Positions 8,268 through 41,927 of a stretch of DNA of 43,560 bases are shown here, one piece after another. The notes below the pieces were generated by a model. It was not told where the DNA came from, made no database searches, and worked only from the letters and a program-made list of their open reading frames with translations. Source of the stretch: Cryomorphaceae bacterium (GTDB lineage: Bacteria > Bacteroidota > Bacteroidia > Flavobacteriales_D > Sanyastnellaceae); NCBI GenBank assembly GCA_016124575.1, contig WGNM01000040.1, forward strand, positions 1-43,560, read 5' to 3'. The number at the start of each line of letters is the position of its first letter. Positions within the stretch are counted from its first letter, which is position 1. The position numbers were made by a program, and so were the translations under genes.

Positions 8268-10214
8268 ATGATTCCAAGGGAGGTCATAGATCAAATAATG
8301 CACATCACCGTCATCGAAGACGTGATAGGTGATTACGTGCAACTGAAGAAGGCGGGCTCTGCTTACCGTGGACTTAGTCCGTTCACGAATGAGAAGACCC
8401 CGTCTTTTTACGTCATCCCCTCCAAAGGCATCTTCAAGTGCTTTTCATCGGGCAAGGCGGGCAACGTTGTGACCTTTTTGATGGAGCACGAAAAGCTTTC
8501 GTATCCCGAGGCATTGAAAATGCTGGCTCAGCGCTACAACATTGAAATTGTCGAAGAGCGTCCAAGCGAGGAGGCCATGCAGGAGCGTTCTGAGCGCGAA
8601 TCATTGCTGGCCGTTTCGCAATTTGCCAACGAGTTTTTTCAGCGCTCGATGTGGGATGATGAAGACGGACAGGCCATTGCACTAGCGTATTTTCAGGAGC
8701 GTGGTTTTAGAGACGATATCATACGCAAGTTTCAACTGGGCTATTCACCCGATAGAAGTGATGCCTTGCTCAAGGCAGCGCAGCAAGCAGGCTTTGAAAA
8801 AAAATGGCTCGTAGCAGCGGGATTGGTGAAAGAAGGTGAGCATGGAGCCTTTGATTTTTTCAGAGGTCGTGTCATGTTTCCTATACGCGACGTTTCAGGA
8901 CGAGTGATAGCGTTTGGCGGACGAACACTGCGTACCGATAAGAAGATCGCGAAGTACTTCAACAGTCCGGAAAGTGCCCTGTACAACAAATCGCGAGTGC
9001 TTTACGGCATCCATTTGGCCAAAAACCAAATGGTGAAAGAAGACCGCTGTTATTTGGTTGAAGGGTATACCGACGTTGTTGCCATGCACCAGGCGGGCGT
9101 TGAGAACGTGGTAGCGTCCTCAGGAACCTCGCTTACCGAAGATCAGGTGCGATTGATCAAGCGGTACACACCTAACATTGTTGTGTTATACGATGGAGAT
9201 CCGGCAGGAATCCGCGCATCGTTCCGAGGAATCAACCTCATTTTAAAAACCGGGTTGAACGTACGTGTAGTGCTGTTTCCAGACGGCGACGACCCCGATT
9301 CATATTCGAAGAAAGTATGTTCTGAAGAGTTTAGAAGCTACATTGCTGAAGCGTCGAAAGACTTTATTTCATTCAAGACAAGCATACTTGCTGAAGAGGC
9401 AGCAGGCGACCCCTTGAAACGAGCAGCCATGATTACCGATGTTGTTGAATCGGTGGCTATGATACCCGACGCAATCAAACGCAGCGTGTACATACAAGAG
9501 TGCAGCAGCTTATTGGGCATTGATGAGCAGGTCTTGTTGATTGAGACCAACAAACATTTACGCAAGCAAACCAAAGAAGGAGGAGCACCGCAACAAGATG
9601 TCCCCCCGATTGATTTGCCGCCCGTTATTCAACCGCGCGACCGGGAATTGGAGGTGAGCGCTTTGGCGCAGGAACGCGATTTGGTGCGGTTGATATTGAA
9701 CTATGGCCGATTGCCTGTAAACATCGAGCTACACAACATTGTATCAGACGAGCTAGAATCAAGTCAGATCACTGTTGCGGAGTATTTGCTTTTTGAGTTG
9801 CAAGACGAAGCCATGGAGCTGCACGACCCCGTTTTGAGACGTTTGACGCAGGAGTATGCGCGTGAGTTGCTCGACGGACAGTTGCCACATGACCGGTTTT
9901 TTTCGCAGCATGCCGATCAAGCCCTCGCTCAGTTGTCGGCCGAGTTGCTCAGTTTCCCTTATACTGTAAGTGAGAATTGGACCCTGCGACATAACATCTA
10001 CCCAGAAACTGAAGACATGAACTTGGGCAAAGCGGTAAAAGATTGCATTTACCGATTGAAACTAAGGCATGTAATGGTTATGATCCACAGCATCGAAGAA
10101 GAGTTGAAAGCTTGCAGGGAGAACGAGCGCATCAACGAGCTTTTTCAGGAAAAATTACGTCTAGATCACGTGAAGATGCAACTATCACGCTATTTTGGCA
10201 GTACTATACTCTAG
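8268..10214 (+). CDS. dnaG: DNA primase DnaG
   Basis: 648 residues, the usual length. It makes RNA primers for lagging-strand replication together with the DnaB helicase. The N-terminal domain (1-100) aligns with the CHC2 zinc-finger fold, but the ligand positions read LSPFTNEKTPSF and FKCFSSGKAGN: three of the four Cys/His ligands are replaced by Ser/Thr/Ser. I recall this loss as common in Bacteroidota, so it need not mean inactivity. The catalytic core follows (about 120-320), with the TOPRIM glutamate E265 in YLVEGYTDVVAM and D309/D311 in VLYDGDPAG. The C-terminal helicase-binding region (about 450-648) is divergent, as is usual. The ATG at 8268 is fixed by the -7 box and by the conserved MIPREVIDQI start. 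Confidence 0.97.
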   Translation: MIPREVIDQIMHITVIEDVIGDYVQLKKAGSAYRGLSPFTNEKTPSFYVIPSKGIFKCFSSGKAGNVVTFLMEHEKLSYPEALKMLAQRYNIEIVEERPSEEAMQERSERESLLAVSQFANEFFQRSMWDDEDGQAIALAYFQERGFRDDIIRKFQLGYSPDRSDALLKAAQQAGFEKKWLVAAGLVKEGEHGAFDFFRGRVMFPIRDVSGRVIAFGGRTLRTDKKIAKYFNSPESALYNKSRVLYGIHLAKNQMVKEDRCYLVEGYTDVVAMHQAGVENVVASSGTSLTEDQVRLIKRYTPNIVVLYDGDPAGIRASFRGINLILKTGLNVRVVLFPDGDDPDSYSKKVCSEEFRSYIAEASKDFISFKTSILAEEAAGDPLKRAAMITDVVESVAMIPDAIKRSVYIQECSSLLGIDEQVLLIETNKHLRKQTKEGGAPQQDVPPIDLPPVIQPRDRELEVSALAQERDLVRLILNYGRLPVNIELHNIVSDELESSQITVAEYLLFELQDEAMELHDPVLRRLTQEYARELLDGQLPHDRFFSQHADQALAQLSAELLSFPYTVSENWTLRHNIYPETEDMNLGKAVKDCIYRLKLRHVMVMIHSIEEELKACRENERINELFQEKLRLDHVKMQLSRYFGSTIL

Positions 10215-10321
10215 TTGGCTAAATTGTTGAAATCAACGTACAATCGTTGGCATCACAAGGATTGCTTTGAATAATTTTCAACATCCGTGTAAGAAGTTGT
10301 ATCTTCGAACTCCGATTTATT

Positions 10322-11290
10322 ATGTATCACATGAAACAGACACACATTCTACTAGGTTTTGTCATGGTTTTTTTCACCTCTTTTTTCATGGCATCTTGCC
10401 TGAATGAAGACAATAAAATTCCACCAAACTGTTACGATGGATTATTGAACAATGGTGAGGAACGCATTGATTGTGGAGGTGTCAACTGTCCCCTTTGCGA
10501 CCCTTGCGAAAACTTCATTTGGGAGCCAGAATTGGGCGAGCAGTGGGTTGACTGTGGAGGAGAATGTGAGCCATGTTTGGCGAGTTTTAACGGGCAATTG
10601 GATCCAGGTGAAGAAGGGATTGACTGTGGTGGCGACACCGAAGTTGATTGTGGACAATTGTGTGGAGATGGATTGTTGAATGGTAACGAGGAAGAAATCG
10701 ACTGCGGCGGACCGGATTGTGATCCTTGTCCGACCTGCGTAGACCTCATGATGAATGGCGACGAGCAAGGTATTGACTGTGGTGGAGAAGACTGTGATCC
10801 TTGTTCTACAGGTGGAGACTGCACCAACGGAGAAATCGACGGAGATGAGCAATACATCGACTGTGGAGGTACTCACTGTCCGCCTTGCGTTGGCTTCCTT
10901 TCATGGAAAGCAAACGGACAAACCCACGTAGCTGATTTCTCAACCAGTGCTTCAATGGCCGGTTCATCTATACAGATTGGTGGTGTAACTCTGCAATCAG
11001 CGGGATTTGCTGCTACCATACCTGAACCGCTTGTTGTTAGCTGGATTGCGGGTTCTACTTCAACCGTTAACACAGCAAACTTCCCCGCAGGTCAGGCGCT
11101 ATACAGCAGTCCGACAGCGATTACTTACTCAACCCAATTTGGCACAGCGCAAATAACCTTTAACATCGAGTATGTGAACCCTGTATCAGGCGGCTTCATC
11201 AAAGGAACCTTCTCAGGCTCATTGGTTGATGCAACAGAAACCGATCAGGTGAACATTTCACAAGGACAATTCTCGCTTCCTATTAACTAA
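10322..11290 (+). CDS. Lipoprotein with six Cys-rich DCGG repeats
   Basis: 322 residues (or 319 if the second ATG at 10331 is used). A lipoprotein signal peptide ends at MASC (C26). Residues about 37-195 carry six copies of a unit of the form NG-E--IDCGG--C-PC (the six DCGG cores read RIDCGG, WVDCGG, GIDCGG, EIDCGG, GIDCGG, YIDCGG), rich in Asp and Glu and likely disulphide-bonded with calcium-like acidic loops. The C-terminal part (200-322) is a Cys-free, beta-rich domain beginning FLSWKANGQTH, resembling small lipoprotein domains common in Bacteroidota. The reading frame on the other strand is open through the repeats but is only a shadow. The role is unknown; a surface-exposed anchor or binding protein is a guess. 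A TATCTTCG box lies at 10300-10307 and a terminator at 11314. Confidence 0.8.
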   Translation: MYHMKQTHILLGFVMVFFTSFFMASCLNEDNKIPPNCYDGLLNNGEERIDCGGVNCPLCDPCENFIWEPELGEQWVDCGGECEPCLASFNGQLDPGEEGIDCGGDTEVDCGQLCGDGLLNGNEEEIDCGGPDCDPCPTCVDLMMNGDEQGIDCGGEDCDPCSTGGDCTNGEIDGDEQYIDCGGTHCPPCVGFLSWKANGQTHVADFSTSASMAGSSIQIGGVTLQSAGFAATIPEPLVVSWIAGSTSTVNTANFPAGQALYSSPTAITYSTQFGTAQITFNIEYVNPVSGGFIKGTFSGSLVDATETDQVNISQGQFSLPIN

Positions 11291-11313
11291 GGAAAGCGAT
11301 TGCAATAATTGAG

Positions 11314-11342
11314 GGGCTGCCATTTTGGTGGCCCTTTTTTTT
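11314..11342 (+). terminator. rho-independent terminator after the Cys-repeat lipoprotein
   Basis: GGGCTGCCA (11314-11322) pairs with TGGTGGCCC (11326-11334), two G-U pairs, three-base loop, followed by eight Ts. It lies 24 bp beyond the stop codon. Confidence 0.85.
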
Positions 11343-11513
11343 GTCTATACTATTGGCAAAGTGTAAAGCTGATTGAGATGAGTCTTAAAGGGAATTCATT
11401 GCACAAGGCACATTGACAGAAGCCGATACTTTGCTTTACAAAGTCTGTATGCAGCCCAATTACGGGCATTGAAAGGTGATTACAAAATGGTGGGGTTGAT
11501 TTTTATAGCAAGA

Positions 11514-11540
11514 AAAAGGCCATCCAATGGATAGCCTTTT
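11514..11540 (-). terminator. rho-independent terminator of the minus-strand OmpA lipoprotein gene
   Basis: Arms 11514-11525 and 11529-11540 pair over 12 bp with one mismatch around three bases, ending in TTTTTCTT on the minus strand and TTTTC on the plus strand. It stands 53 bp past the stop at 11594 and faces the plus-strand terminator at 11314, so it probably works in both directions. The 171 bp between the two terminators contain nothing I can support. Confidence 0.75.
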
Positions 11541-11593
11541 CTTACAATTAAAACCCCTGTGGAACTTGCAGGTTCACCGAAAGGGAAGTTGGG

Positions 11594-12583
11594 TTATGGG
11601 TTATCGATGATCTCGAAAAGCTCGTTTAAATTCGGAGAGATAATGATTTCGATACGGCGGTTGCGCGCCTTATCTTCTGGGTCAACAGGATGGAACTCAC
11701 TGCGGCCTGAAGCAGAGAGTATCAGTGGTGACACCTTACTATTTTCAGTCATAATCTTCACAACGGCCGTAGCGCGAAGCACGCTGAGTTCCCAGTTGTC
11801 GCGAGGAATAGATGTGCTGCGCAGCGCATCGGTATCTGTGTGGCCTTCCACAATGATCTCCATATCACTTTGACCTTCAATCGCATTGGCAAGGTCAATC
11901 AAGGCGCGTTTTCCTTCAGCATCAATCACAGTGCTTCCCGATGGGAAAAGGAGTTTAGCCTCGAGGCTTACATACACCTTTCCATTTTTTTGTTCGATGG
12001 TCAAGCCTTTGTCTTTAAAGCCTAGCAGCGCATCTGCAATTTTATTTTTTAACGCAGTAGCAGCATCTTGTTGACGAGAAAGTAGGTCTTGCAGTTCGTT
12101 CACCTTTTGCTCTCTCGACATCAATTCACTGTTTATAGAATCGAGGTTTGCTTCCTTCGCGTTGAGTTCATTTTCGAGGGCGCGCAGGGCGTCTTCTTTT
12201 TCGATGAGCTCTTGACGGGTGGTTTGAAGGTCAGTGAGAAGCTGACGATTTTCCGCATTCATATCGTTGAGCATTTTGGTGTTTTTATTCATCAAAATGT
12301 CATTCAACTCATTGATTTTATCATATTGGTCGCGGAGGTGGCGGTTGGCATTTCCAAGCAACGTAGTATCGGCTTCCAGACCTTCTAATCTTTTCTGGTA
12401 ATCAGCGTTTGCCGCGTTCAGGTCGTTCGCTTGAGCTTTGAGTTGGTCGGTGCTTTTTTTCAGCTTGTCGTTTTCAGTCTGGTATTCGTTTTTCCTGGTC
12501 TCAAGCTCTTCGTATTGACGTGCAGTTACGCATGACGCCAACGTTATCACAATCGATAAATAAAACAAGACAATCCTAGCCAT
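11594..12583 (-). CDS. OmpA-family lipoprotein with long coiled coil
   Basis: 329 residues. A lipoprotein signal ends at LASC (C18). Residues 22-190 are an almost continuous heptad-rich coiled coil (many Glu, Lys, Leu, Asn; few Gly and no Pro), followed by an OmpA-like peptidoglycan-binding domain (about 200-320) with LFPSGSTVIDAEGKRAL, IIVEGHTDTDAL and NRRIEIII. The conserved Asp and Arg that hold diaminopimelate in this fold are present in the HTD and RNRR segments. It should be anchored in the outer membrane by lipid and hold peptidoglycan, the coiled coil acting as spacer. Monocistronic: a CAACTTTG box lies at 12602 and a terminator at 11514. Confidence 0.88.
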   Translation of the reverse strand: MARIVLFYLSIVITLASCVTARQYEELETRKNEYQTENDKLKKSTDQLKAQANDLNAANADYQKRLEGLEADTTLLGNANRHLRDQYDKINELNDILMNKNTKMLNDMNAENRQLLTDLQTTRQELIEKEDALRALENELNAKEANLDSINSELMSREQKVNELQDLLSRQQDAATALKNKIADALLGFKDKGLTIEQKNGKVYVSLEAKLLFPSGSTVIDAEGKRALIDLANAIEGQSDMEIIVEGHTDTDALRSTSIPRDNWELSVLRATAVVKIMTENSKVSPLILSASGRSEFHPVDPEDKARNRRIEIIISPNLNELFEIIDNP

Positions 12584-12601
12584 AGTGCAATAATTTCAGC
12601 G

Positions 12602-12609
12602 CAAAGTTG
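12602..12609 (-). promoter_or_regulatory. -7 box (CAACTTTG, minus strand) of the OmpA lipoprotein gene
   Basis: On the minus strand this reads CAACTTTG, one base from TAnnTTTG, and would start transcription about 12 nt upstream of the ATG at 12583. The same octamer stands before the T9SS cargo gene at 27087-27094. Confidence 0.5.
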
Positions 12610-12672
12610 GAGAAAGAAAGTTAGGCATTGCCGACACTCCAATATTCTTATGCACAGAAGCAGGTGGAAAGG

Positions 12673-13668
12673 TTATTTCGACATGTCGGCAACGATACGC
12701 CCTGTGGTTTCACCATTTAACATGCGCGCCATGAGATCAGGTATTTCTTCGAGCGAAACAAATTGAGAAGCACTTTCGGGCAATGCAAAACGCCACTTAG
12801 CAGCTAGTTTTCGCCATATTTCATGTCGCAAAGCGACGGGTGTTTCAGCAGAATCGACACCCAAAAGATTGATGCCATTGAGGATGAAAGGGTAAACCGT
12901 AGTGATTAGTTCCGGACTTTTAACTAGTCCGATAGTGGCTACAGAGCCATTTCGGTCGCACGCTTTCAGTAAAGTGCTTAGCACATTGCCACCAACATTA
13001 TCGATTGCTCCGGCCCATTTTGGACGCAAGAGCGGACGTCCGCTTTGATCATCTACATCTTCGCGCGAAACGACTGCTGTTGCGCCGAGATTTTTTAAAT
13101 ATTCATGGTGATCAGACTTGCCAGAGGCCGCGTGTACTGTGTAGCCCGCGTGACTTAGCAAAGCCACAGCCATGCTACCTACTCCGCCACTTGCGCCGGT
13201 AACCATGATCGGGCCCATTTCGGGTGATTGACCACAAAGCTCCATTTTATGCAAAGCAAGTGCTGCTGTGTAGGCTGCTGTGCCGTATACCATGCTAAGA
13301 GGCATCGACATCCCCGCTGGTAGCGGGATAAGCCATTTGGCGGGCACACAGATGTACTCAGCGAAACCACCGTTTGTATTCATGCCAAGGTCGAAAGAGG
13401 TGCAGATCACCTCTGTTCCTGGCATGAAGATGCCATTGTTGTCGCGCACCACCACCCCGGCAGCGTCTACACCAGGCGTATGCGGATATTCACGGGTGAT
13501 GCCGGTATGTCCGTTACCCGACAGCGCATCTTTATAATTCAGCGCCGCGTAATGCACCTTGATGAGCACCTCATTTTCGGGTAAAAAGGCGAATGGTACC
13601 GACTCGATTTCAGGAGAAACCGTTCCATTTCTATCGCGTGCCACTACGGCTTTATAAGAGTCCATCAT
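12673..13668 (-). CDS. YhdH/AcuI-type zinc-free MDR oxidoreductase (acrylyl-CoA reductase family)
   Basis: 331 residues from the ATG at 13668; an ATG at 13683 gives five more, but the family begins near MDSYKAVV. The N-terminal GroES-like domain has NYKDALSGNGHTGI and the PHTPGVDAAGVV motif. The Rossmann part has TGASGGVGSMAVALLSHAGY with the NADPH-binding AASGK turn. These match the YhdH/YhfP/AcuI branch, NADPH-dependent 2-enoyl (acrylyl-CoA) reductases with no catalytic zinc. In DMSP- or propionate-using bacteria AcuI detoxifies acryloyl-CoA; no such pathway genes are nearby, so the physiological substrate stays open. The start overlaps the 3' end of the deacetylase gene by 17 bp, so the two are co-transcribed. 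Confidence 0.88.
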   Translation of the reverse strand: MMDSYKAVVARDRNGTVSPEIESVPFAFLPENEVLIKVHYAALNYKDALSGNGHTGITREYPHTPGVDAAGVVVRDNNGIFMPGTEVICTSFDLGMNTNGGFAEYICVPAKWLIPLPAGMSMPLSMVYGTAAYTAALALHKMELCGQSPEMGPIMVTGASGGVGSMAVALLSHAGYTVHAASGKSDHHEYLKNLGATAVVSREDVDDQSGRPLLRPKWAGAIDNVGGNVLSTLLKACDRNGSVATIGLVKSPELITTVYPFILNGINLLGVDSAETPVALRHEIWRKLAAKWRFALPESASQFVSLEEIPDLMARMLNGETTGRIVADMSK

Positions 13669-14290
13669 TGTTTTTTCGTTCATCCAAGATACACGAATGC
13701 CACCCCATATCGTTCAAGAAGCGCAAGAAATCAGGCAGCACCGATAAAACATTGTCTTTCGCTTTGAGGCTATCATGAAACACAATGATAGAGCCCGGTC
13801 GCGTGTTTTCGGTCACATTTTTCAGACATTGAGAGCGGGAGATGTTCGCGTCGAAATCGCCACTTAAGACATCCCACATAATCAGCGAGAAACGCTTTTT
13901 CAACGCATCTGCTTGTTGTTTGGTGATGCGGCCGTATGGCGGGCGAAACAGCGAACAGTTGAGCAGTTCATCGGTTTGCATCACACTTTTCAAATAGCTG
14001 AATTGCGACGTTTTCCATCCATTTTCATGTGCCCACGTATGGTTGCCGATGGCATGTCCTTCATTCAACAACCGCTCCAGCAAACCGGGGTGTTTTTCAG
14101 CATTCGCACCAACGCAGAAAAAAGTTGCTTTAGCATTGTACTCCGCCAGAATATCTAAGACATAGGGCGTGACCTCCGGAATGGGTCCATCATCAAACGT
14201 GATGAACACCTCATTGACCACATGAGGGATATCCCAAATGAAGCTTGAGGCCAAAGGTTTTAATATTTCTGGAGTTTTAGAGAGATACAT
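13652..14290 (-). CDS. NodB-type polysaccharide deacetylase
   Basis: 212 residues, a single NodB homology domain with no signal peptide visible. All five catalytic motifs are present: TFDDGP (D33 as base, D34 as metal ligand), NHTWAH (H84 and H88 as metal ligands), RPPYGR (116-121), the WDVLSGDFD segment (139-147) and IIVFHD (H172). These enzymes remove N- or O-acetyl groups from chitooligosaccharides, peptidoglycan or exopolysaccharide. Without a signal peptide the enzyme may be cytoplasmic or exported otherwise; the substrate cannot be told. It is first in a two-gene unit with the MDR oxidoreductase and is divergent, 61 bp apart, from the next MDR gene. Confidence 0.9.
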   Translation of the reverse strand: MYLSKTPEILKPLASSFIWDIPHVVNEVFITFDDGPIPEVTPYVLDILAEYNAKATFFCVGANAEKHPGLLERLLNEGHAIGNHTWAHENGWKTSQFSYLKSVMQTDELLNCSLFRPPYGRITKQQADALKKRFSLIMWDVLSGDFDANISRSQCLKNVTENTRPGSIIVFHDSLKAKDNVLSVLPDFLRFLNDMGWHSCILDERKNNDGLL

Positions 14291-14351
14291 TCAGATGAAT
14301 CGCTGCGGAATTTGTAAAATCGCTGTCTAAGGAATAAAAAAAACAAGCACC

Positions 14352-15386
14352 ATGAAAATGAAGGCAGCAGTTTTGGTAAAACACGGCCACGCAGAAGAAG
14401 CATTTGAGCTGAGAGAGATTGACCGCAAAGAGCCTGGCAGCAGGGAAGTGAGCGTAAAAGTTGAAGCCTTCGGACTGAACTTTGCTGACGTCATGGCCCG
14501 CAAAGGATTGTACCGAGAAGCACCGCCCTTGCCCTCTGTTTTGGGATATGACCTATGCGGGATAGTAGATCAAGTAGGAGCAGGAGTATCAGCCGATTGG
14601 CTCGGGAAGCGCGTTGCTGGCATGTCGCGATTTGGAGCCTATGCCGAATATTGCGTCACCAACATCAACGGTTTGACAGCCATAACAGCCGACTTAGACC
14701 CCATTTCAGCCACCTCATTGGGCACACAATGTTGCACCGCTTACCATGCAGCCTTTCAAGCCACCAACATCTACCCCGGAGAGCGCGTTTTGATTCATGC
14801 CGCCGCAGGAGGTGTGGGATCGATATTGGTACAGCTAGCCTTGCACCACGGGTGTGAAGTATTTGCCACCGCCGGTAGCGATGAAAAGCTCGAGAAGTTG
14901 CGAAAAATGGGTGTGCACCATGCCGTGAACTACAAATCACACGACTACGAAAGTGCCTTGCTGCAGATTTTGCAAGGCGAGCGCATCGATGCTATTTTCA
15001 ACGCCATTGCCGGGAGTACCTTTAAAAAAGACCAACGCCTGCTTGGCGCAGGAGGGAGGAACGTTATTTACGGAGCAGCAGAGCGAACAGGCATGAAAGG
15101 AGGAAAGATTGCCACCTTGCGCATGATCAACCGCATGGGACTTTTGATACCCATTTTGCGCATGGCCAAAAGTCAGTCGCTGGTTGGGGTCAACATGCTG
15201 AAAATGGGAGATTACAAGCCAGAACGCATCGCTTCAGCGCTCGCTGCCTGTGCACATCTGATGGAAACCGGGGTTATTTCAAAGCAAGAAGGCGGACTAC
15301 TTTTCGGAATCGAAGACCTTGCAAAAGCGCACCGCATGTTGGAAGAGCGAAAAACAACAGGTAAGATTGCCATTCGGTGGGATTGA
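14352..15386 (+). CDS. Quinone oxidoreductase-like MDR protein
   Basis: 344 residues. The GroES-like N-terminal domain contains FGLNFADVMARKGLY and the PSVLGYDLCGIVDQVG motif; the Rossmann domain has IHAAAGGVGSILVQLA, a nucleotide-binding TAGSDEKLEKL stretch and AVNYKSHDY. This pattern fits zinc-free quinone oxidoreductases of the VAT1/QOR branch of the medium-chain dehydrogenase/reductase superfamily, probably NADPH-dependent. Substrate unknown. It is not closely similar to the AcuI-like neighbour at 12673, so recent duplication is unlikely. The stop is 54 bp before the leuS start, which has its own promoter box. Confidence 0.87.
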   Translation: MKMKAAVLVKHGHAEEAFELREIDRKEPGSREVSVKVEAFGLNFADVMARKGLYREAPPLPSVLGYDLCGIVDQVGAGVSADWLGKRVAGMSRFGAYAEYCVTNINGLTAITADLDPISATSLGTQCCTAYHAAFQATNIYPGERVLIHAAAGGVGSILVQLALHHGCEVFATAGSDEKLEKLRKMGVHHAVNYKSHDYESALLQILQGERIDAIFNAIAGSTFKKDQRLLGAGGRNVIYGAAERTGMKGGKIATLRMINRMGLLIPILRMAKSQSLVGVNMLKMGDYKPERIASALAACAHLMETGVISKQEGGLLFGIEDLAKAHRMLEERKTTGKIAIRWD

Positions 15387-15411
15387 GTCTACGTGTTCGG
15401 TTGGAATTGGC

Positions 15412-15419
15412 TAATTTCG
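15412..15419 (+). promoter_or_regulatory. -7 box (TAATTTCG) of leuS
   Basis: TAATTTCG differs from TAnnTTTG at one position. Transcription would start near 15425, about 16 nt before ATG 15441. This supports 15441 rather than an in-frame start at 15393, which would lie upstream of the box. Confidence 0.5.
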
Positions 15420-15440
15420 CCGTGCAAAATACTGTTGGCA

Positions 15441-18400
15441 ATGGAATACGATTTTCAGGAGATAGAAAAGAAGTGGCAAAAACGCTGGAGAGCGCGTGGA
15501 TCATATAAAGTAGAGGAGGTTCAGGGCAAAGAGAAGTTTTACGTTCTCGATATGTTTCCTTACCCATCAGGGGCGGGGTTGCACGTAGGTCACCCACTTG
15601 GGTATATCGCCAGCGACATTATCGCCAGATATAAGCGCCACCAGGGGTACAACGTATTGCACCCTATGGGGTATGATTCATTCGGACTACCCGCAGAGCA
15701 GTATGCCATTGAAACCGGTCAGCACCCGGCTATTACCACCGAGAACAACATCGCCCGCTATCGCCAACAGCTAGATCAGATAGGGTTTTGCTACGATTGG
15801 GATCGCGAAGTGCGCACCAGTGAGCCATCGTATTACAAATGGACACAGTGGATTTTTTCGGAGTTGTTTGAGTCGTGGTACAACCTCGATACCGATAGAG
15901 CAGAGCCGATCAGCAGTTTAGAAGAGAAGTTCACTACCAATGGAACATACAACGTAAATGCCGCCATTGATGAACACTGGTGGAAGTTGCTTACAAAAGA
16001 AGAGTTCCCGTTTTTCAGTGAGCATTTTTCAGGAGAATTCACCGCTACCGATTGGAAATCGCTTACCGACCGACAGAAGCAGCTCATCCTCATGCATTTC
16101 CGTCTCACTTATTTGGCCGACTCATGGGTGAACTGGTGTCCGAAACTCGGCACCGTGCTCGCCAACGACGAAGTGAAAGATGGGCGATCGGAGCGAGGCG
16201 GACATCCCGTTGAGCAGAAGCTCATGCGCCAGTGGAGCATGCGCATCACGGCTTATGCCGACCGCTTGTTGAGGGGGTTAGACACCATCGACTGGTCAGA
16301 CTCAATCAAAGAGATACAACGCAATTGGATAGGCAGAAGCGAAGGAGCATCGATTGTTTTCCAAGTCGACAGCAGCGATGCCACCATCGAAGTATTTACA
16401 ACCCGTCCTGACACCGTTTTCGGAGTGGCCTTTGTGACCTTAGCACCCGAGCACGGCTTGGTAGATGCAGTTACCACACCCGATCAAAAAGGGGCGGTGA
16501 CGGCCTATGTGAATGCCACAAAGTTGAAAACCGAGCGCGACCGACAATCTGAGCAGAAATCGACAGGAGTATTTACAGGAGGATATGCCGTGCATCCGCT
16601 AACCGGAAAACGCATTCCGATTTGGATTGGCGACTATGTCTTAGCATCATACGGAACAGGAGCAGTAATGGCCGTGCCGGCGGGAGACCAGCGCGACTGG
16701 GATTTTGCCAAGACATACAACATAGCCTTTACCAATATTTTTGAGGGCGTGAGCGTTGATGAAAGCGCACATACAGAGAAAACCACCCCGCTGCGCGAAT
16801 CATCTTTTCTTGATGGCACATGCGGAAAAAAAGCGACACAGCTCGTTGTTGCCAAACTGGAAGAACTGGGCGCTGGAAAAGGCAAAGTAAACTTCCGATT
16901 GCGCGACGCGGTATTCAGCCGCCAGCGCTACTGGGGTGAGCCTTTCCCGATTTTTTATAAAGACGGATTGCCGTATGTGGTTGACGGACAGCAGGTAACA
17001 TTGCCCGACGTAGACAAGTACCTACCTACGGAAGACGGTCAGCCACCGTTGGCAAGAGCAAAGAAAGAAGATTGGAACGTGTTTTTAGGCGACCACATGG
17101 AGTTTAACACCATGCCCGGCTGGGCAGGATCGTCGTGGTACTTTTTGAGGTACATGGACCCGAAGAACGACCAGACCTTTTGCGCCAAAGACAAAGCAGC
17201 GTATTGGGGACAGGTTGACCTGTACATGGGAGGAGCGGAACATGCCACCGGACATCTATTATACAGTAGGTTTTGGACCAAATTTTTGTTCGACCGCGGT
17301 TACATAGCATTTGATGAGCCATTCAAAAAAATGGTCAACCAAGGGATGATACTGGGTAGGTCGAATTTTGTTTATAGGGTGATTATTGATGTAAAGAAGG
17401 TTGATGAATCCATTTCAGACAAAGAAGAGTGGGCTGCTTCAAAAGAGATGGAAGGTTTTAAGAGAATGGATTGGGCAATGAGAATGAACGACACAATCAA
17501 TAGCTATTGTGTATCTAAAGAATATGTTAGCGACATTGAAGGAAGTTACGTGCTGTCTGAGGATGTATATTTGAAAATCAATCAAGACTTAGAGAAGTAT
17601 AACTTAGCCTTGAGAAGTATTAATCGATCACTTTGCATTTCTCAAATAATAAGGCCAAATATCGATATATCGTTTGTCGATAACGATGTGCTGGATGTTG
17701 ATAGCTTCAAAGAAAAAAAAATACAATTCAAAAATTCTAAGTTCATACCAGGTCCAGATGGTAAGTTTCGATGCAGCAACGAAGTTGAAAAAATGTCGAA
17801 ATCGAAATACAACGTACAGACGCCTGACGAGTTGGTAGAGCGTTACGGAGCCGATACCCTGCGTTGTTACGAGATGTTTTTAGGTCCACTTGAGCAGCAC
17901 AAACCGTGGGACACCAAAGGAATAACTGGAGTGCACGGATTCTTACGCAAATTGTGGCGATTGATGCACGACCAAGACAACAACTTGCGTGTTACTGATG
18001 AGGCAGCGAGTGCCGACGAATTGAAAGCTCTGCACAAAACCATTCGCAAAGTAACCGAAGACCTCGATCGCTTATCGTGGAACACCGTTGTAAGTGCCAT
18101 GATGATAGGTGTGAACGAACTGACAGATTTGAAGAGCAGCAAACGCAGCATTCTTCAACCGTTGGTTGTTTTGCTTTCACCTTATGCCCCGCACCTTGCC
18201 GAAGAGCTATGGGAGCGTTTGCAAGGGGAAGGCAGCGTGATGGATCAGATGTGGCCAAAGTGGGAAGAGCAGTACCTCGTAGAAGCGAATTTCACATACC
18301 CCGTTTCTTTCAATGGGAAGGTGCGCTTCAAGGTCGATTTGCCTGCCGACATGAATGCAGCAGAGGTTGAGAAAGCCGTAATGGACAATGAGAAAACACC

Positions 18401-18473
18401 ACAATACTTAGAGGGCAAAGCGCCGAAAAAAGTGATTGTGGTGCAAGGTCGTATCGTCAATATCGTTCATTAA
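15441..18473 (+). CDS. leuS: Leucyl-tRNA synthetase
   Basis: 1010 residues from the ATG at 15441 (MEYDFQEIEKKW, the standard N-terminus). It charges tRNA-Leu. The HIGH-type motif is HVGH (48-51) in YPSGAGLHVGHPLGY, the editing domain has FTTRPDTVFGVAFVTLAPEH and YGTGAVMAVPAGDQRDWDF, and KMSKS is at 784-788. The protein is longer than most bacterial LeuRS (about 860-940). Part of the excess is the usual Bacteroidota insertion at about 150-210, but a further stretch at about 640-770 (DNA 17360-17760) is unusually long, A+T-rich and uses AGA/AAA/ATA codons rather than the CGC/AAG of the flanks (see findings). The stop is only 3 bp from the end of the convergent PorE-like gene. Confidence 0.97.
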   Translation: MEYDFQEIEKKWQKRWRARGSYKVEEVQGKEKFYVLDMFPYPSGAGLHVGHPLGYIASDIIARYKRHQGYNVLHPMGYDSFGLPAEQYAIETGQHPAITTENNIARYRQQLDQIGFCYDWDREVRTSEPSYYKWTQWIFSELFESWYNLDTDRAEPISSLEEKFTTNGTYNVNAAIDEHWWKLLTKEEFPFFSEHFSGEFTATDWKSLTDRQKQLILMHFRLTYLADSWVNWCPKLGTVLANDEVKDGRSERGGHPVEQKLMRQWSMRITAYADRLLRGLDTIDWSDSIKEIQRNWIGRSEGASIVFQVDSSDATIEVFTTRPDTVFGVAFVTLAPEHGLVDAVTTPDQKGAVTAYVNATKLKTERDRQSEQKSTGVFTGGYAVHPLTGKRIPIWIGDYVLASYGTGAVMAVPAGDQRDWDFAKTYNIAFTNIFEGVSVDESAHTEKTTPLRESSFLDGTCGKKATQLVVAKLEELGAGKGKVNFRLRDAVFSRQRYWGEPFPIFYKDGLPYVVDGQQVTLPDVDKYLPTEDGQPPLARAKKEDWNVFLGDHMEFNTMPGWAGSSWYFLRYMDPKNDQTFCAKDKAAYWGQVDLYMGGAEHATGHLLYSRFWTKFLFDRGYIAFDEPFKKMVNQGMILGRSNFVYRVIIDVKKVDESISDKEEWAASKEMEGFKRMDWAMRMNDTINSYCVSKEYVSDIEGSYVLSEDVYLKINQDLEKYNLALRSINRSLCISQIIRPNIDISFVDNDVLDVDSFKEKKIQFKNSKFIPGPDGKFRCSNEVEKMSKSKYNVQTPDELVERYGADTLRCYEMFLGPLEQHKPWDTKGITGVHGFLRKLWRLMHDQDNNLRVTDEAASADELKALHKTIRKVTEDLDRLSWNTVVSAMMIGVNELTDLKSSKRSILQPLVVLLSPYAPHLAEELWERLQGEGSVMDQMWPKWEEQYLVEANFTYPVSFNGKVRFKVDLPADMNAAEVEKAVMDNEKTPQYLEGKAPKKVIVVQGRIVNIVH

Positions 18474-18476
18474 CCG

Positions 18477-20741
18477 TCATTCTTCGACGTCTGTAAACAC
18501 CTCCGGTTCTTCGCTTTTTGCGCTGACTTTGTGGTTGGTATCTCGCACTTCGAATTCAACCCTGCGGTTGCGTTGATGCTGTTCTTCTGTGCAAGAGTAT
18601 CCGTCAATGCACTCATTGAGTAGTTTGGCTTCTCCAAATCCACGGGCAGTGAGTCGATCAGCAGCAATACCGTTTTCGATGAGGTATTGTCGCACAGCAT
18701 CAGCCCTGCGTTGTGAAAGGGCATAGTTGTACTTGTCGCTGGCTCTGCTATCGGTATGGGCAGATATTACACCAGAAACACCGGGATTTTTACGAAGCAC
18801 ATCCAAGAATGTCAACAAATCGGGCATAGCGTCGTTGCGCAACTCCGACTTGTCGCGATCAAAGTACACATGGTACAGCTCGATGACCATGCCCGGCTGC
18901 ACGCGTATTTCGGGCGAGAGCATAGGAGGCATCACCTTTTTATCGGGCTGCATCGCAATTTCGAGGGCATAGCATTGATCTTCACTCTTCACAACCTGAA
19001 GGTTCGTTTTATACTCTTCGAAAGCAGTGCGAGAAACAGTTACTTCCACATCCTCACCGTTGGTGAGCGGAATGAAAAAGGAGCCCAAACCTGAAGTTGT
19101 GAACTCAAATTCTTGATCAGCACCTTGCACGCACACCTGCACTTCCGAAAGAGGGTTGCCGTATACACCATGCCAAATACGTCCGCACAAAAACGCCTGT
19201 TCAAGTTGAGCAGCTTCAAGTGGACTCAGCGCCAATGCGGTTTGTAATGTTTGTCCGTCGAGCATGCCCATCGTCGTCAGCTCCAAGTTGCCCGAGCAGC
19301 CGTCATCGGCCGTGTACAAATCGTGTTTTGCTACCAATTTAAAATTTGCCTGAGTAAACGTTGTATATGTGTAGCCACCGAGCGAATCGGTGAAAGCAGT
19401 CGCCACGAAATTATCATCACCAAGCAGATCGATGCGGGCATTAACAATTGGCAAGTGCGTGAAACAATCGATCAGCGTTCCAGCGATGTGGAAGCCCGTT
19501 TCTTGCGTGAAATACAAGACATCGTCTTTCTGGTTGTTGTTTCGGTTGGATGTAAAAAAACCAGTGCGGCCATCGGCATTAAAGCACACGCCAAAATCAT
19601 CTTTCGGACTATTGAGGGGCAGACCAGCGTTTTCGGGAATCCCGTCGCCATCGAGCGCACAGTGAAACACATCCAAGCCACCAAAGCCGGGCATATAGTC
19701 TGAGGAAAAAAAGAACACCTCACCATTGAAAGAAGGAAAGACCTCATTGCCAGGAGTGTTGATTCGTTTTCCTAGGTTTTCAGGCTTTCCCCAAGTGCCG
19801 TCGCTGTTTTTACGACAACGATAGAGGTCCATTTGACCTTCACCGCCCGGCATATCTGACGAGAACACAAGCGTTTGCTCGTCAGGGGAGAGAGCTGCGT
19901 GGGCGATGTTATAGTTGTTGTTGTTGAACGACAAAGCTTTTGTTTTTTTCCATTCTCCACCTTCACGTGTGAGGCGTACAAGTTTCAATCGTGTATTGTT
20001 TTGATCATCGAATCCGCGTTTGCCTGAGGCAACATCGGTTGTTGTCATGTACGCTTCGGTACCGGCGGCATTGATGAAAACAGGGCCATCGTGATAAACG
20101 GTGAGTGGAAATTCTTGTGCTGGTATCGGTTCTGAGAACGATTGGCCGTTCATTTCAACCACAAACAGATCGGTAAATCGATCGTTTGTCCATGGGTCAT
20201 TCTCACCAGATTTCTTCATCGCACCTTTTCGGTTCGAGCTGAAGTACAGCTTGTTACCAGCAATAAACGGGGCGAAATCGAGGTCTTCGGAGTTAAAATT
20301 CAGTGGTGAGACCTTGTATTTCTTTTTCGAAAGCGCTCCAGAGGCAATGCCTTTTGTCCATGCCAATAGCTGACTTGCGTGATTTGTCTTCTCTACGTTT
20401 GTTTCGGCTGCGATGTACTTTTCTAGCCATGATGCAGCGTCATTGTATTTTTCGTTTGCGATAAGCACTTGGCTATACCACAGCTTTACAATGGGGTCTT
20501 CATTCATGAGGGCAGCCCGTGTGAACCAGTATTCGGCCTCGGCAAAACGGTTTGTTTTCCAGAAACACAGTGCCAAATTGGTGATGGCTCTGTCGTTATC
20601 GAGGTCTTTTCGAATCGCCTGTTCATACAACTCAATGGCTTCATCGTAGTGGTGATGTTCAAAAGCTTCGTCGGCTTTTTTCATCTGCGCAGTTGCGCTT
20701 AGGGCAAAGAACAGAAACGGGAGTGCAAACAGTTTGTTCAT
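18477..20741 (-). CDS. PorE-like OmpA protein with TPR, PD40 propeller and OmpA domains
   Basis: 754 residues. A signal peptide (1-18, SATAQ) has no lipobox. The order is TPR-like helices (about 20-110, AIELYEQAIRKDLDNDRAITNLALCFW), a WD40/PD40-like propeller (about 150-400, with repeated LYFSSNRKG, TLVFSSDMPGGEGQMDLYRC and FFSSDYMPGFGGLDVFHC blades), a carboxypeptidase-regulatory-like region (about 415-600) and an OmpA domain (about 635-745, HVYFDRDKSELRNDA, ISAHTDSRASDKYN, NRRVEFEV). This TPR-PD40-regulatory-OmpA order is that of PorE, a T9SS-associated peptidoglycan anchor. It is the last gene of the operon with a PorP/SprF homologue 12 bp upstream. Likely role: hold the outer-membrane partner complex to peptidoglycan. 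Confidence 0.9.
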   Translation of the reverse strand: MNKLFALPFLFFALSATAQMKKADEAFEHHHYDEAIELYEQAIRKDLDNDRAITNLALCFWKTNRFAEAEYWFTRAALMNEDPIVKLWYSQVLIANEKYNDAASWLEKYIAAETNVEKTNHASQLLAWTKGIASGALSKKKYKVSPLNFNSEDLDFAPFIAGNKLYFSSNRKGAMKKSGENDPWTNDRFTDLFVVEMNGQSFSEPIPAQEFPLTVYHDGPVFINAAGTEAYMTTTDVASGKRGFDDQNNTRLKLVRLTREGGEWKKTKALSFNNNNYNIAHAALSPDEQTLVFSSDMPGGEGQMDLYRCRKNSDGTWGKPENLGKRINTPGNEVFPSFNGEVFFFSSDYMPGFGGLDVFHCALDGDGIPENAGLPLNSPKDDFGVCFNADGRTGFFTSNRNNNQKDDVLYFTQETGFHIAGTLIDCFTHLPIVNARIDLLGDDNFVATAFTDSLGGYTYTTFTQANFKLVAKHDLYTADDGCSGNLELTTMGMLDGQTLQTALALSPLEAAQLEQAFLCGRIWHGVYGNPLSEVQVCVQGADQEFEFTTSGLGSFFIPLTNGEDVEVTVSRTAFEEYKTNLQVVKSEDQCYALEIAMQPDKKVMPPMLSPEIRVQPGMVIELYHVYFDRDKSELRNDAMPDLLTFLDVLRKNPGVSGVISAHTDSRASDKYNYALSQRRADAVRQYLIENGIAADRLTARGFGEAKLLNECIDGYSCTEEQHQRNRRVEFEVRDTNHKVSAKSEEPEVFTDVEE

Positions 20742-20753
20742 ATTGCGAAAGGG

Positions 20754-21680
20754 TTAGAAGAAGCGCGGGTGGTAGTACCCATCGCGCTTTTTAATGAGGT
20801 TGAAACCAAGGTATAGTTCATGAGAACCGAGGTGGTTTTGAATTTTTGTAATGGTAAAGTCGTAGGCGTAGCCGACCTTCAGTGACTTTGTGATTTCGTA
20901 GCTGAAAATCGCACTGAACGAGTCGCCCAGGCGGTACGATGGTCCCACCCACATGGATTTGTTGACATAGAACAAAACGCCCAGATCTGCCTGCAAAGGC
21001 GCGCCTTCAACGTGCCGCAACATGGCTATGGGGTGGAGGTAGGTGTTTTGAGAGATGCGGAACAATGCCCCACCAGTGAGGTGAACGTGCCGTTTATTTT
21101 GGTACGAAGCGGCTTGCAAGTTGTCGGTATTAGCGAACATAGATCGCGTTTCGAGCAGCCGAGGGGCAGACAATCCGACGAAGAATTTTTCATTTCGGAA
21201 ATAGGTACCAAAGCCGAAGTTGTAAAAGGCTTCGCCGATGTTGGCAACAGGAATCGCCTGATCGCCTGCTGTTGATGGGTTGGCCATGGTCCAGTCGATA
21301 TGGGTGTTGCCGTATTCAGCCGACAGACCGAACGAGAGCGTTCCGTTTTGCATGCCCAAATGATAGGCAAACGATGCTTGAACAGCCGATGTAGACGTAA
21401 ATCCAAGTCGGTCGCGCATTACGTTCAATCCCACTCCGAAAGAACCGTGTGAGAGTGGCGCATGCACAAAAGCGTTTTCTGTGCGGGGAGCACCTTCAAA
21501 ACCGGTCCATTGGTTGCGGTAAAACAACCCTGAGCTGAGTCCGTCTTTTGACCCCGCCACTGCCGGATTAAAAGACAATTGGTTCCATAAGAATTGCGTG
21601 TTACCAGCATATTGCTGGGCATAAGTGGCAATTGAGCTTATGAAGAATATAACGAGCGCGATATACTGTTTCAATTTCAT
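20754..21680 (-). CDS. PorP/SprF-family type IX secretion membrane protein
   Basis: 308 residues. A signal peptide (1-21, ATYAQ) is followed by the conserved start QFLWNQLSFNPAVAGSKDGLSSGLFYRNQWTGFEGAPRTEN, typical of PorP/SprF proteins, and beta-barrel strands to the C-terminus (YLGFNLIKKRDGYYHPRFF). Family knowledge: SprF in Flavobacterium johnsoniae is needed for export of the adjacent type-B-CTD adhesin SprB, and such proteins also help attach cargo at the outer membrane. Here the upstream gene, 8 bp away, encodes a giant protein with a type-B CTD, and the downstream gene encodes a PorE-like protein, the same sprB-sprF-like arrangement. The likely job is dedicated export or tethering of that protein. 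Confidence 0.92.
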   Translation of the reverse strand: MKLKQYIALVIFFISSIATYAQQYAGNTQFLWNQLSFNPAVAGSKDGLSSGLFYRNQWTGFEGAPRTENAFVHAPLSHGSFGVGLNVMRDRLGFTSTSAVQASFAYHLGMQNGTLSFGLSAEYGNTHIDWTMANPSTAGDQAIPVANIGEAFYNFGFGTYFRNEKFFVGLSAPRLLETRSMFANTDNLQAASYQNKRHVHLTGGALFRISQNTYLHPIAMLRHVEGAPLQADLGVLFYVNKSMWVGPSYRLGDSFSAIFSYEITKSLKVGYAYDFTITKIQNHLGSHELYLGFNLIKKRDGYYHPRFF

Positions 21681-21688
21681 GTCGCTGT

Positions 21689-24600
21689 TTATTGGTGTAT
21701 GGTGATGTAACCGTTTTGAAGGGTTTCGCCAGTTTCTGTGTTTTCAAGTACGTAGAAATACGTGCCATCAGGCAGTGGTTTTCCGTTCCAGGTGCCGAAC
21801 CAATCGTTTTGGTAGTTCTGTGTTTGATACACTTCTGCACCCCAGCGGTTGTACACGGTAATTTCGTTGGAAAGGAAACGCTGAATGCCTTCAATCTCAA
21901 GGGCGTCGTTCACGCCATCGCCGTTGGGAGTGATGATGTTTGGGACATCCAAGTACGGATAGATTTCTAGCTTTAATGTTGCCGTAGTGCACATGTCTGG
22001 ACATCCCGCAAGGCACAATTCATAGGTGATTTCATCTGGTCCGGCATAGCCCTCTTCAGGCAGGTACTCAATGATATCTGAACCGCTAACCTGGGCTGTA
22101 CCGTGGTCAGGCAGGTCGATCAGCGTTATTGCGTAGCTCACACCTCCGGTTTCGTCGTTGCTGGTGACGTTGATGTCGGCTGGAGTGCCTTCAACAAGAT
22201 CGTGCTCATCATTCACTGCAGTTGGCGGAAAAGGGGCGTAAACAGCCACTTCATCGGTAGAAAATGTACCGCAGCCTTCGTTGTGCAGCGACCATGTGAA
22301 AAGGTAGGTATTTCCAATTTCGGCGCCTAACACGGCGGATGATGCCTGGTTTGGACTGACGATTTGCAATGATTCGTCGTCGGTACTCCAAAAGCCATTC
22401 AAGGTATTTGTGTTTTGTGCTTGCAAATCAAAGGGTTGATCGGCACATGCTACGATGCTCACTCCTGCATAGGCCTGCTCGGCGGGAACGACGTCGATTT
22501 GGACGTTTTCTACCAGCGATGGTCTGCTCCAGCATACGCCGTCGAAAATTTGCAACAAGTAGTTACCCGCGTTTGATGTCTGCGTTTCAGCTATGGCGTA
22601 TTGGTTCGATTCGTTGGTAACTTGTGTGCCATCGGGAAGTGTCCATGTGTAAAAGGTCGCTTCCGCGGATGTTGAGAGGTCGAGGGCATCGCCGAGGCAT
22701 ATCGGACTGTTGCTGAGCAGGCCGGGGGTTTGTGGCAGCGGCAAGACATCTACATCTAGCGTGAATGGAGAAGATTGACAGGCGCCATTGGCCACAACCA
22801 ATGTATATGTTCCTTCTCCGAGTACGGTTATTGATTCGATTGCTGGGGGGGAAGATGATTGACCGGAATAACCATTAGGCCCCGTCCAAGTATACGATGC
22901 TGCCGCCACAGGTGTCGAGAAAGTGAGTGTTTCACCTTCGCAAATGTCGACTGTGTTGACTGAGAATATGGCATCTGCCGGACTTTGCGATACCGTTACT
23001 TGCACGGGCACAGAAGCCTCAGAAGCGCAGCCATCAATAACAACGTAAACCGTTACATCGCCACTTTCTCCAAGATTTGGTGTCCATTCAACAAAGTTCT
23101 GATTGGTCACAAACTGTCCGGATGGTGTGCTCCAATGGTATTCAGGATTTCCTTGATATGCAGTTGCTGAAATCAAGGCGTCATCGCCAATGCACAAGCC
23201 GCTGCTCCCAGAAATTACGGGTGCAACAGGCTGAGAGGTGATGCTCACCAGTGTTTGCACAATGGGCGATGCGCAGCCAAATACATCGGTTACTTGCAGT
23301 GTATACACGCCCTGGTCTTCTGGCAATGCGTTTTCAATAACGGCGATGCTGTCTTGCGAGAAATAATTGTTGCTGTTCCACGAAAAAGTGAATGGACCCG
23401 TTCCTGAATTTACAATTGGCTCAATTAGCAGGTCATCCGCGCCGTTGGCGCAGGGAAGAGAGGCGTTAGAAACCGCCACAGTAGGGTTAGGCTTCACATT
23501 CAAATCGAACGGCGCCGATGGTTCAGAGTAACAGTTCCCAATTTGCACCATGACTTGGTAAGAGCCGGTCATATCGGTATTTGCCTGAGGTAAGGTCCAA
23601 TTGTAGTTGTTAAACCCGTCTTGAATACCAGGCCCCGACCACAAGTAGCTCACACCAACACCTTGGTATTGGTTGATGAAGAGGTTGAGGGGTTGTCCGG
23701 CGCAGACATCTCCTGCGCCATAAATGGTTGGTGTAGAAATGGTTGGTGACACCACTTCAACCTCGCTGCATCGGCTGGCGTTGTAATCATTTAGTCCGAT
23801 GGTAGTACCTGTTCTCTCTACTCCAAGCGGATTTAGAGGTCCGTAAGAAAGTGTATCGAGGTGTGTGTTCCAACAGCTAGAGAACTTCAGCGAGGTGCAA
23901 TTTTCAGCGAAGGTGCACGGCGGAAAAGACTCTTGGGCTTGAATGGTGTAAACCAGTTGGCACGATACTCCGAGTGGTATACTGTCCCACATGGCTGAAA
24001 TAGAACCGAAGGTGGTTACAGGAGTGCCAGCCAAAAGGTCTTCACATTCGGTGAGCATCGATCCCGATACGAATTGCAGTCCGATGGGTAAATCGTTTGT
24101 CAGATCTACATCGAAGGCTGTGCCTGTTGAAGTAGGTTTATGGCTCACGGTAAGCGTAACATATGTTTGATCGCCAGGCAGAATTTGATCGTTGAAGAAA
24201 GCGATGTCGACATCGAGCTCGGGCTCCAGCACTTCAAGTGTATGCGTGCCGGTGCGTGTTGTAAGCGCAGTAGATACGGGGTTGCGGTATTGCAGCGTTA
24301 CCGTATGTCCGAGTTGATATCCATTTTGATTGACCGCAGTATTCAGCACTGTAGCGCTATACACCAGGCGGATGTACTCTTTTTCATCGTTGTCTGACGC
24401 GGCATTGGTGATTACCCCAAGTGGAAGTGTAATCATGCGGTTCGTGTTTTCTGTGCCAGAACCGATGTTGGTGATGTTCAAACCTGCGAGCACTTGGTTG
24501 GTAGAGCCAACAGAGAATGAGATTTCTTGCGGACGCTCAAAAGATATAAACTCTTCCAGTGAAAGTCCTTCAGGCAGCACACAGCTAAATGTGCCATCCA

Positions 24601-40218: not shown

Positions 40219-41343
40219 ATGTCGGCCACATCACCCACCACCACCCCTCATTTCCACCGTACCCTCGGCCTAAAAAACTACGAAATCAGCAACCATCCCG
40301 CACGAGCGGGACAAGTGTTGGGCAATGTAACAGCCACCGTAAGCGATGCCAAAACAACTACCTTCAATGGCGAAGTGGGCTACACCACGCGCATCAACAC
40401 CTTAACCGATTACTACCCCTTTGGGATGATGATGTCGGGCAGAAGTTTTGATGAGGCGGGGTATGGGTATGGGTTTCAGGGGCAGGAGACTGATGACGAG
40501 ATCAAGGGTGAAGGGAACTCCATCAATTATAAATACAGAATGCACGATGCACGGATAGGGCGGTTTTTCGCGGTGGATCCGTTGGCTGCAAGTTTTCCGT
40601 GGAATTCGAGTTATGCGTTTAGTGAGAATCGGGTGGTGGATGCTGTGGAGTTGGAGGGGTTGGAACAGGTATCTTTCCACCAAAAATCTTGGACTGATTC
40701 AGATGGTAATCGCCAATCATCAACAACTGAAAGAGGTACGAACCATGAAGGACAGGGCAATGAAGGCTTCTATGGCAGTCAGATAATCACAAATGATGAT
40801 GGGACAACTTTTTCAGCCGGTAGCTATTTTCCTCCTGTGGAGATTTCAATAGAAAAGGATCAAAATCTAATTACACAAAATGGAATAAATAATGAGGTCT
40901 TAAATGCTATACTAAGCTTCCCGTTAGATCACTATGTTGGCGGATATGCCGAAATACCAATTCAAACAGCGTTTGCTGGAACTTCATTCGGAATCATTGC
41001 CACTCGAAATGGTGTAGATGGCTATGTCACAACTAGAATGCCCGATCATGGACAGGGTTTTCAATTTGAAGTAGCTTCATTTGGAATTGAACTAGGCAAT
41101 GTTTGGAGCACGGGCGACGCCTCTGCAGTCACTTTAGAAAACTTCAGTGGTGATATGGTAACAGCAGAAGTAAACATGAGCTTGGTGATAATTGATGGGG
41201 GAGTAACCATAGGAGTTTCAGAAAAATACAACGAAAAGGATCGTTTAATTTTTATAGGTAGGCAATTGAGTGTTGGAGCGGCACCCCCTGGTTTTTCTGG
41301 GGGATTTTCTTCAGATTCAAAAACAGAAGTTTATGATTGGTGA
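40219..41343 (+). CDS. Orphan Rhs C-terminal end with unknown toxin-like domain (cassette 1)
   Basis: The frame is open from 40141, with Rhs-like residues before the first ATG (TYYIRDASGNALTHYTRT at 40165-40218), so the true 5' part of the Rhs gene is missing and the start is uncertain. Residues 50-135 are the RHS repeat-associated core: LTDYYPFGMMMSGRSFD, YGFQGQETDDEIKGEGNS, YKYRMHDARIGRFFAVDPLA and NRVVDAVELEGLE. After this the composition shifts abruptly: residues about 140-374 are an A+T-rich-coded domain, rich in Gly, Ser and Thr and beta-prone (for example GGYAEIPIQTAFAGTSFGI), with no catalytic motif I know. In Rhs proteins this is where the toxin sits. The following gene overlaps the stop by 11 bp, as toxin/immunity pairs do. 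Confidence 0.8.
   Translation: MSATSPTTTPHFHRTLGLKNYEISNHPARAGQVLGNVTATVSDAKTTTFNGEVGYTTRINTLTDYYPFGMMMSGRSFDEAGYGYGFQGQETDDEIKGEGNSINYKYRMHDARIGRFFAVDPLAASFPWNSSYAFSENRVVDAVELEGLEQVSFHQKSWTDSDGNRQSSTTERGTNHEGQGNEGFYGSQIITNDDGTTFSAGSYFPPVEISIEKDQNLITQNGINNEVLNAILSFPLDHYVGGYAEIPIQTAFAGTSFGIIATRNGVDGYVTTRMPDHGQGFQFEVASFGIELGNVWSTGDASAVTLENFSGDMVTAEVNMSLVIIDGGVTIGVSEKYNEKDRLIFIGRQLSVGAAPPGFSGGFSSDSKTEVYDW
40267..40460. repeat. Rhs core segment, copy 1
   Basis: This stretch is homologous to 42154-42355, sharing blocks such as CATCCCGCACGAG (40294-40306 and 42180-42192) and the coding motif DYYPFG followed by GRSF. The copies diverge at most third positions, so this is an old duplication or independent capture, not a recent tandem copy. 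Confidence 0.75.
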
Positions 41344-41761: not shown

Positions 41762-41927
41762 TCCAAACTAATTCCACGATTCTCAAATTGACATTTCGAA
41801 AAGAATACTTGATTCTATAGGTTACATTCAACATGAAATAGTCGGGTTTATTTAGACAACTTCAACTTCACATCCCTCACAAAAACCCACTACCTTGGGA
41901 ACGCCGCAGGCGCATTACACGCAAACC

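Follow-up and report, generated by a model that had tools for sequence, protein, structure and literature searches.

The leucine-specific (LS) domain of the leucyl-tRNA synthetase (LeuRS) encoded in the window, i.e. the whole stretch of 43,560 nucleotides that was analyzed, is an AT-rich segment of about 133 residues that stands in place of a different, shorter segment in a genome of the same genus. From comparisons of LeuRS sequences we conclude that the LS domain has been exchanged repeatedly by recombination across relatives. It is probable, in our judgement, that the window carries a swapped LS domain from a hypervariable pool, whose diversity would be kept by selection and is likely to reflect escape from a docking antagonist.

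The leuS gene and its AT-rich segment

leuS is located on the forward strand at positions 15441–18473 and starts with an ATG at 15441. An open frame extends from a GTG at 15393 to 18473 without an internal stop codon. The product matches TIGR00396 (leuS_bact) at 934.3 bits, which is above the curated cut-off of 548.4, and Pfam finds the LeuRS editing domain and class I synthetase domains. The HVGH and KMSKS motifs and the editing domain are all present, with KMSKS at positions 17790–17804, in agreement with the preliminary description of an open frame with intact catalytic motifs. In a search of the window genome this is the only LeuRS found; three other matches, short and weak ones, fall in two frames (714 and 881 residues) that are taken to be other class I synthetases.

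The conserved left boundary (GRSNF) is at 17355–17371 and blastn similarity to the same-genus genome stops at 17371. The LS domain cassette, as delimited by codon alignment, blastn and GC content, is at 17372–17771. The conserved right boundary, defined by blastn and alignment, is at 17772–17804 and leads into the KMSKS catalytic loop; all three features are on the forward strand. The cassette is in frame and directly before KMSKS, which is the site of the LS domain. Predicted structures of the whole enzyme and of the LS domain have mean pLDDT values of 37.8 and 49.8 and are too weak to use.

The segment is as AT-rich as first described: GC content is 0.345 over positions 17355–17765 and 0.343 over 17372–17771, compared with 0.476 for the whole leuS gene. 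Only 35 of the 4316 sliding 400-bp windows of the whole stretch have a GC content as low as that of the cassette or lower, and among the windows listed these are at the cassette or near 41.5 kb. The proposed shift in codon usage is present in part. AGA represents 3 of 7 arginine codons in the cassette and 5 of 46 in the rest of leuS, and ATA represents 5 of 14 and 9 of 34 isoleucine codons, respectively; CGC makes up 23 of the 46 arginine codons outside. The lysine codons do not display the pattern that had been proposed, i.e. AAA in the block and AAG in the flanks, as AAA is 8 of 14 in the cassette versus 41 of 58 outside, where AAG is 17 of 58. The encoded residues Asn, Asp and Ser are all enriched, as had been stated, but so are Ile and Lys.

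Two other regions of the window may be mentioned. A second strongly AT-rich stretch, with GC content down to 0.302 per 400 bp, is at positions 41131–41970 and spans the end of the open reading frame 40219–41343 and sequence beyond it. This open reading frame and the one at 41895–43271 are presumably RHS-type proteins with variable tips, judging by motifs; Pfam shows no family for either. Downstream of leuS, on the other strand at 18477–27076, are an OmpA/TPR protein, a PorP/SprF type IX secretion protein and a CHU_C protein of 1795 residues.

Replacement relative to a genome of the same genus

G001 (loci L005/L064) is the sole other genome of the window's genus in the searches. Blastn of the window with L064 gives two blocks, 9419–17371 (87.6% identity) and 17772–24467 (88.1%), and positions 17372–17771 are unmatched. 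The two genomes are colinear over about 15 kb at approximately 88% DNA identity and the 400-bp LS stretch is the single break; the edges of the replacement are sharp. The segment between MVNQGM and KMSKS is 86 residues in G001 and 158 in the window, which bears out the extra length originally noted. The 86-residue segment of relatives is taken to hold the usual LS domain.

The alignable remains of the LS domain display 25–45% protein and 47–58% DNA identity between the window and G001 (an LS window in which just one codon aligns is excluded), while 25-codon windows elsewhere in leuS show 83–97% DNA identity. Because alignable LS sequence remains at low identity and blastn similarity breaks off at the domain, the LS domain has been replaced and not inserted into. 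Of two origins put forward in the preliminary description, the young in-frame insertion is therefore set aside, since by codon alignment and blastn with G001 the domain is exchanged and not interrupted; the recombinant LeuRS-specific domain fits the replacement.

Synonymous differences near the edges of the window's cassette are not clearly above the gene background, thus no extended imported tract is claimed around it. In the stretches compared by blastn, no neighboring gene changes along with the cassette. The window's LS domain would have been imported by recombination from another, probably AT-richer lineage and joined in frame between GRSNF and the KMSKS loop, and the conserved flanks may have provided the homology arms for the exchange.

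Distribution of short and long segments

A conserved segment of 85–87 residues is found in many relatives, and versions of 117–166 residues are found in scattered species. Across the order, 365 of 399 genomes show a strong LeuRS match and at least 42 of these, the window's included, match across the block in one piece, a count that, among the matches listed, is a lower bound for long forms since some of them match in two pieces. All 42 display a long segment when read. Among 43 genomes of the window's own family that were read, 36 have a short segment, six a long one and one a segment of 100 residues. The possibility that all close relatives carry the same block is thus not borne out, as G001 and most of the family are short.

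A class-wide sample consists of 296 genomes, of which 269 matched. The 24 loci of other families that were read come from the best-scoring matches and are therefore an enriched set; 20 were parsed in full (127–159 residues), two are long by eye with an incomplete parse and two have no segment. In the order and class-wide sets together, long forms are found in 20 families. Long and short forms are present side by side in six genera (g1, g8, g45, g50, g54 and g56). A core tree (FastTree, 111 rows) requires at least 17 changes between segments of 87 residues or fewer and others; besides sequences omitted from the statistical set described below, it lacks L136 and L153, with segments that are parsed incompletely but long by eye, as well as L152 and L155, for which there is no segment. 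The tree (cut-off 87) counts segments of 88–89 residues with the others; the GC test and the comparisons of window identity and of synonymous differences near the edges (cut-off 89) treat them as short.

At the right edge of the LS domain, several lineages, e.g. L008, L009, L018, L128 and L130, have KMSKR in place of KMSKS.

Third-position composition

Statistics are based on 91 LeuRS sequences enriched for long forms: 50 with segments of 117–166 residues, two of 100 and 39 of 85–89. The set omits the duplicates L130 and L131, L067 (whose segment is that of L085), L119 (without a segment), L023, and 19 more short segments of the window's family. The GC test assigns the two 100-residue segments to neither group.

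The third-position composition of long blocks is unlike that of the rest of the gene. GC3 is 0.293 in long blocks versus 0.418 in the core and is lower in 48 of 50 (Wilcoxon p 1.6e-12), and in short blocks it is 0.422 versus 0.441, lower in 24 of 39 (p 0.08); the GC3 difference separates the two groups (p 2.6e-8), but all of these p values are optimistic because related genomes are not independent. The slope of block GC3 on host GC3 is 0.44 for long and 0.93 for short segments. Short LS blocks follow host composition; long ones are AT-richer than their gene. The block is AT-richer in all 22 parsed loci of other families, and two high-GC class-wide loci have core GC3 values of 0.92 and 0.88 with block values of 0.47 and 0.44 (the 0.92/0.47 locus is G447).

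Variability between close relatives

In 36 close pairs the LeuRS cores have an identity of 0.88 or more, and 31 of these pairs include a segment longer than 89 residues. In the 31 pairs, 20-residue windows of the LS domain have average identities of 0.22, 0.48 and 0.41, and the two windows that flank it 0.87 and 0.86. Identity is also low at the extreme N-terminus, in a window that lies in part before the start (0.57), at residues 6–25 (0.73) and at 766–785 (0.77). In the five pairs where both segments are 89 residues or shorter (one pair is of the 88-residue class), LS windows show 0.77–0.90. Residues 306–325 (G001 numbering), at the start of the editing domain, display 0.66 in the long-containing pairs versus 0.97 in the five short pairs, and are a second, weaker variable spot.

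Even where the rest of LeuRS is 90–97% identical between two species, their long versions can often scarcely be aligned. L065, L066, L067 and L069 have cores that are 95–97% identical (for L067 the twin L085 is used), and their segments measure 139, 132, 161 and 86 residues. Sharp breaks in colinear, similar DNA, as seen between the window and G001, are also found by blastn in five more pairs of named loci, at the LS domain only; the flanks of L066/L069 are 93.6% and 92.9% identical. L065 and L066 show DNA identity of 85.4% to the left of the LS domain and 92.1% to the right, as if a larger exchange had ended near the same place. The L066 record is titled as a Chitinophaga pinensis MAG, a doubtful label because its LeuRS core is 95–96% identical to those of Flavobacteriales MAGs.

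Some LS versions are shared. One LS class spans families, f4 (G039, G050) with f9-g67 (G308, G317), at 51–58% protein identity, and is seen in DNA too (120–153 bases at 71%). The close pairs G308/G317, G016/G033 and G057/G145 each keep one LS class. In blastp of the long blocks, G038 has no match and G312 one weak match. For 46 long blocks with both genera coded, the best match is in another genus in 32 and in the same genus in 14, counts that are weak evidence since some genera are represented by one row only and the match often depends on the conserved C-terminal part. The hypervariable long versions would form a pool whose members replace one another, and the short version, again and again.

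Probable exchange among short segments

G031 and G012 belong to the same genus and both have 86-residue segments. Between them 39 of 68 LS codons differ, versus 131 of 844 elsewhere, and dS is 1.77 in the LS domain versus 0.27 outside. Where the amino acid is the same, 19 of 48 codons differ in the LS domain versus 114 of 827 elsewhere. The synonymous excess is about three-fold by count and about six-fold by dS, and this raised synonymous divergence points to import. The change in the segment includes KMSKS to KMSKR. Control pairs show no clear codon excess, i.e. G313/G289 (10 of 68 versus 141 of 852) and G020/G035 (26 of 68 versus 290 of 843), although dS on 60–120 codons is noisy, as the latter pair has 2.28 in the LS domain versus 0.85 despite the lack of a codon excess.

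Searches for a donor, a mobile element and an antagonist

A search of viral contigs, which covers close relatives only, shows no donor, and none is found in plasmids. In the window's own genome, the only match besides the gene itself is at 14.2 bits (E 0.108). When 113 LS segments are compared as DNA, those of the matches listed that join distant genomes are mainly in the conserved C-terminal part. A check for relics of mobile elements in the block, as first suggested, gives none: PADLOC shows no family for the block alone, Pfam gives one match, which is below the cut-off, and the search of the genome shows no further copy. A mobile element or intein in leuS is rejected, there being no element domain above the Pfam cut-off. 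A solved-structure search with the block gives nothing meaningful.

LeuRS-like matches are present in 56 phage records, all less than 60% identical, and three of the 20 listed are annotated as LeuRS; these records are suspected to be bacterial contigs. No candidate antagonist of the LS domain was identified. Among the matches listed in open PMC, no literature on hypervariable or exchanged LeuRS LS domains was found.

Discussion

The LS domain of the usual bacterial LeuRS is in the same place as the cassette, directly before the KMSKS loop; the window's segment differs from it in its length, in its AT-richness and in belonging to a hypervariable set. The domain is reported to buttress the mobile KMSKS loop and to help guide tRNA, and it is described as not strictly needed; the LeuRS of B. 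subtilis, M. mobile and H. pylori, and AgnB2, are without it (PMC5059758).

Hypervariable cassettes are found in conserved proteins such as type I restriction specificity subunits, the tips of polymorphic toxins and surface antigens. These likewise display a constant core, sharp edges, an exchanged module and turnover of alleles that is faster than speciation. LeuRS is an essential cytoplasmic housekeeping enzyme, unlike these surface and defense proteins.

Selection to alter the surface next to the KMSKS loop may keep the LS domain diverse. As the domain is beside the active site and can vary without stopping catalysis, it would be a place where the enzyme could change its surface and evade a binder. 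The likeliest cause would be evasion of something that docks at the LS domain, such as a phage or competitor protein or, less likely, a small-molecule LeuRS inhibitor, with the core held constant. More tentatively, the LS domain could be the contact surface of a widespread antagonist, either a phage takeover protein or an interbacterial LeuRS-binding effector, and the conflict could have made it an exchangeable recognition cassette; this further step is possible but on balance doubtful.

The strongest rival is neutral tolerance of exchange: the LS domain is partly dispensable, and diverged segments recombine in and drift with no selection for difference. The existence of LeuRS enzymes without the domain (PMC5059758) is consistent with this, and conserved flanks would suffice for exchange. 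We regard it as unlikely, because the short LS domain stays fairly conserved between close relatives, and because replacement recurs at one site of an essential gene while the compared stretches of six pairs contain no further break. Within-class dN/dS also argues against it where computable, being 0.07 in G016/G033 (dS 3.95), 0.12 in G294/G323 (dS 0.99) and 0.21 in G245/G249 (dS 2.30), values read with dS near or at saturation; three more long-form pairs gave no dS. With saturation kept in mind, the ratios suggest that LS blocks may be working domains rather than debris.

Less probable still is that LS versions are resistance alleles against small-molecule LeuRS inhibitors of the TM84 (agrocin 84) type. 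AgnB2, a plasmid-encoded LeuRS for immunity to agrocin 84/TM84, is also altered at the LS site; AgnB2 has no LS domain, whereas the only LeuRS found in the window genome carries an enlarged one. The paper on AgnB2 names the LS domain among possible determinants of inhibitor sensitivity, and reports that its addition to an AgnB2 triple mutant gave a larger inhibition zone and a TM84 IC50 34-fold below that of wild type AgnB2 (PMC5059758). The adjacency of the domain to the KMSKS loop and the variation of the last KMSKS residue in several sequences fit such an escape. Against it, the same paper reports that H. pylori LeuRS, which is without the domain, is still inhibited by TM84 and that the bioassay showed no change when the domain was added to wild type AgnB2 (PMC5059758). 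The number of dissimilar versions also seems to be beyond the need of one drug site.

Fast evolution in place, in which the resident LS domain gains insertions and accumulates substitutions at a higher rate with no import, is very improbable. G245 and G249 are of the same LS class and have a block protein identity of 0.50 versus 0.92 for the core; blocks outpace cores even within a class, thus not all change is import. In-place change does not account well for the sharp edges, for unmatched sequence at 93% flanking DNA identity, for the synonymous divergence of G031/G012 or for the third-position AT shift. An assembly or binning artefact is hardly credible, for although several genomes are many-contig MAGs and the label of L066 looks wrong, the window gene is stop-free, long forms are present in the single-contig assemblies G196, G210 and G568, and the pattern recurs in 20 families.

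Aminoacyl-tRNA synthetases are usually regarded as slow, constant housekeeping enzymes. Turnover of the LS domain between species far exceeds that of the rest of the enzyme, which points to a strong unseen pressure on LeuRS. LeuRS is a drug target as well, and the LS domain may offer a handle for finding what exerts this pressure.
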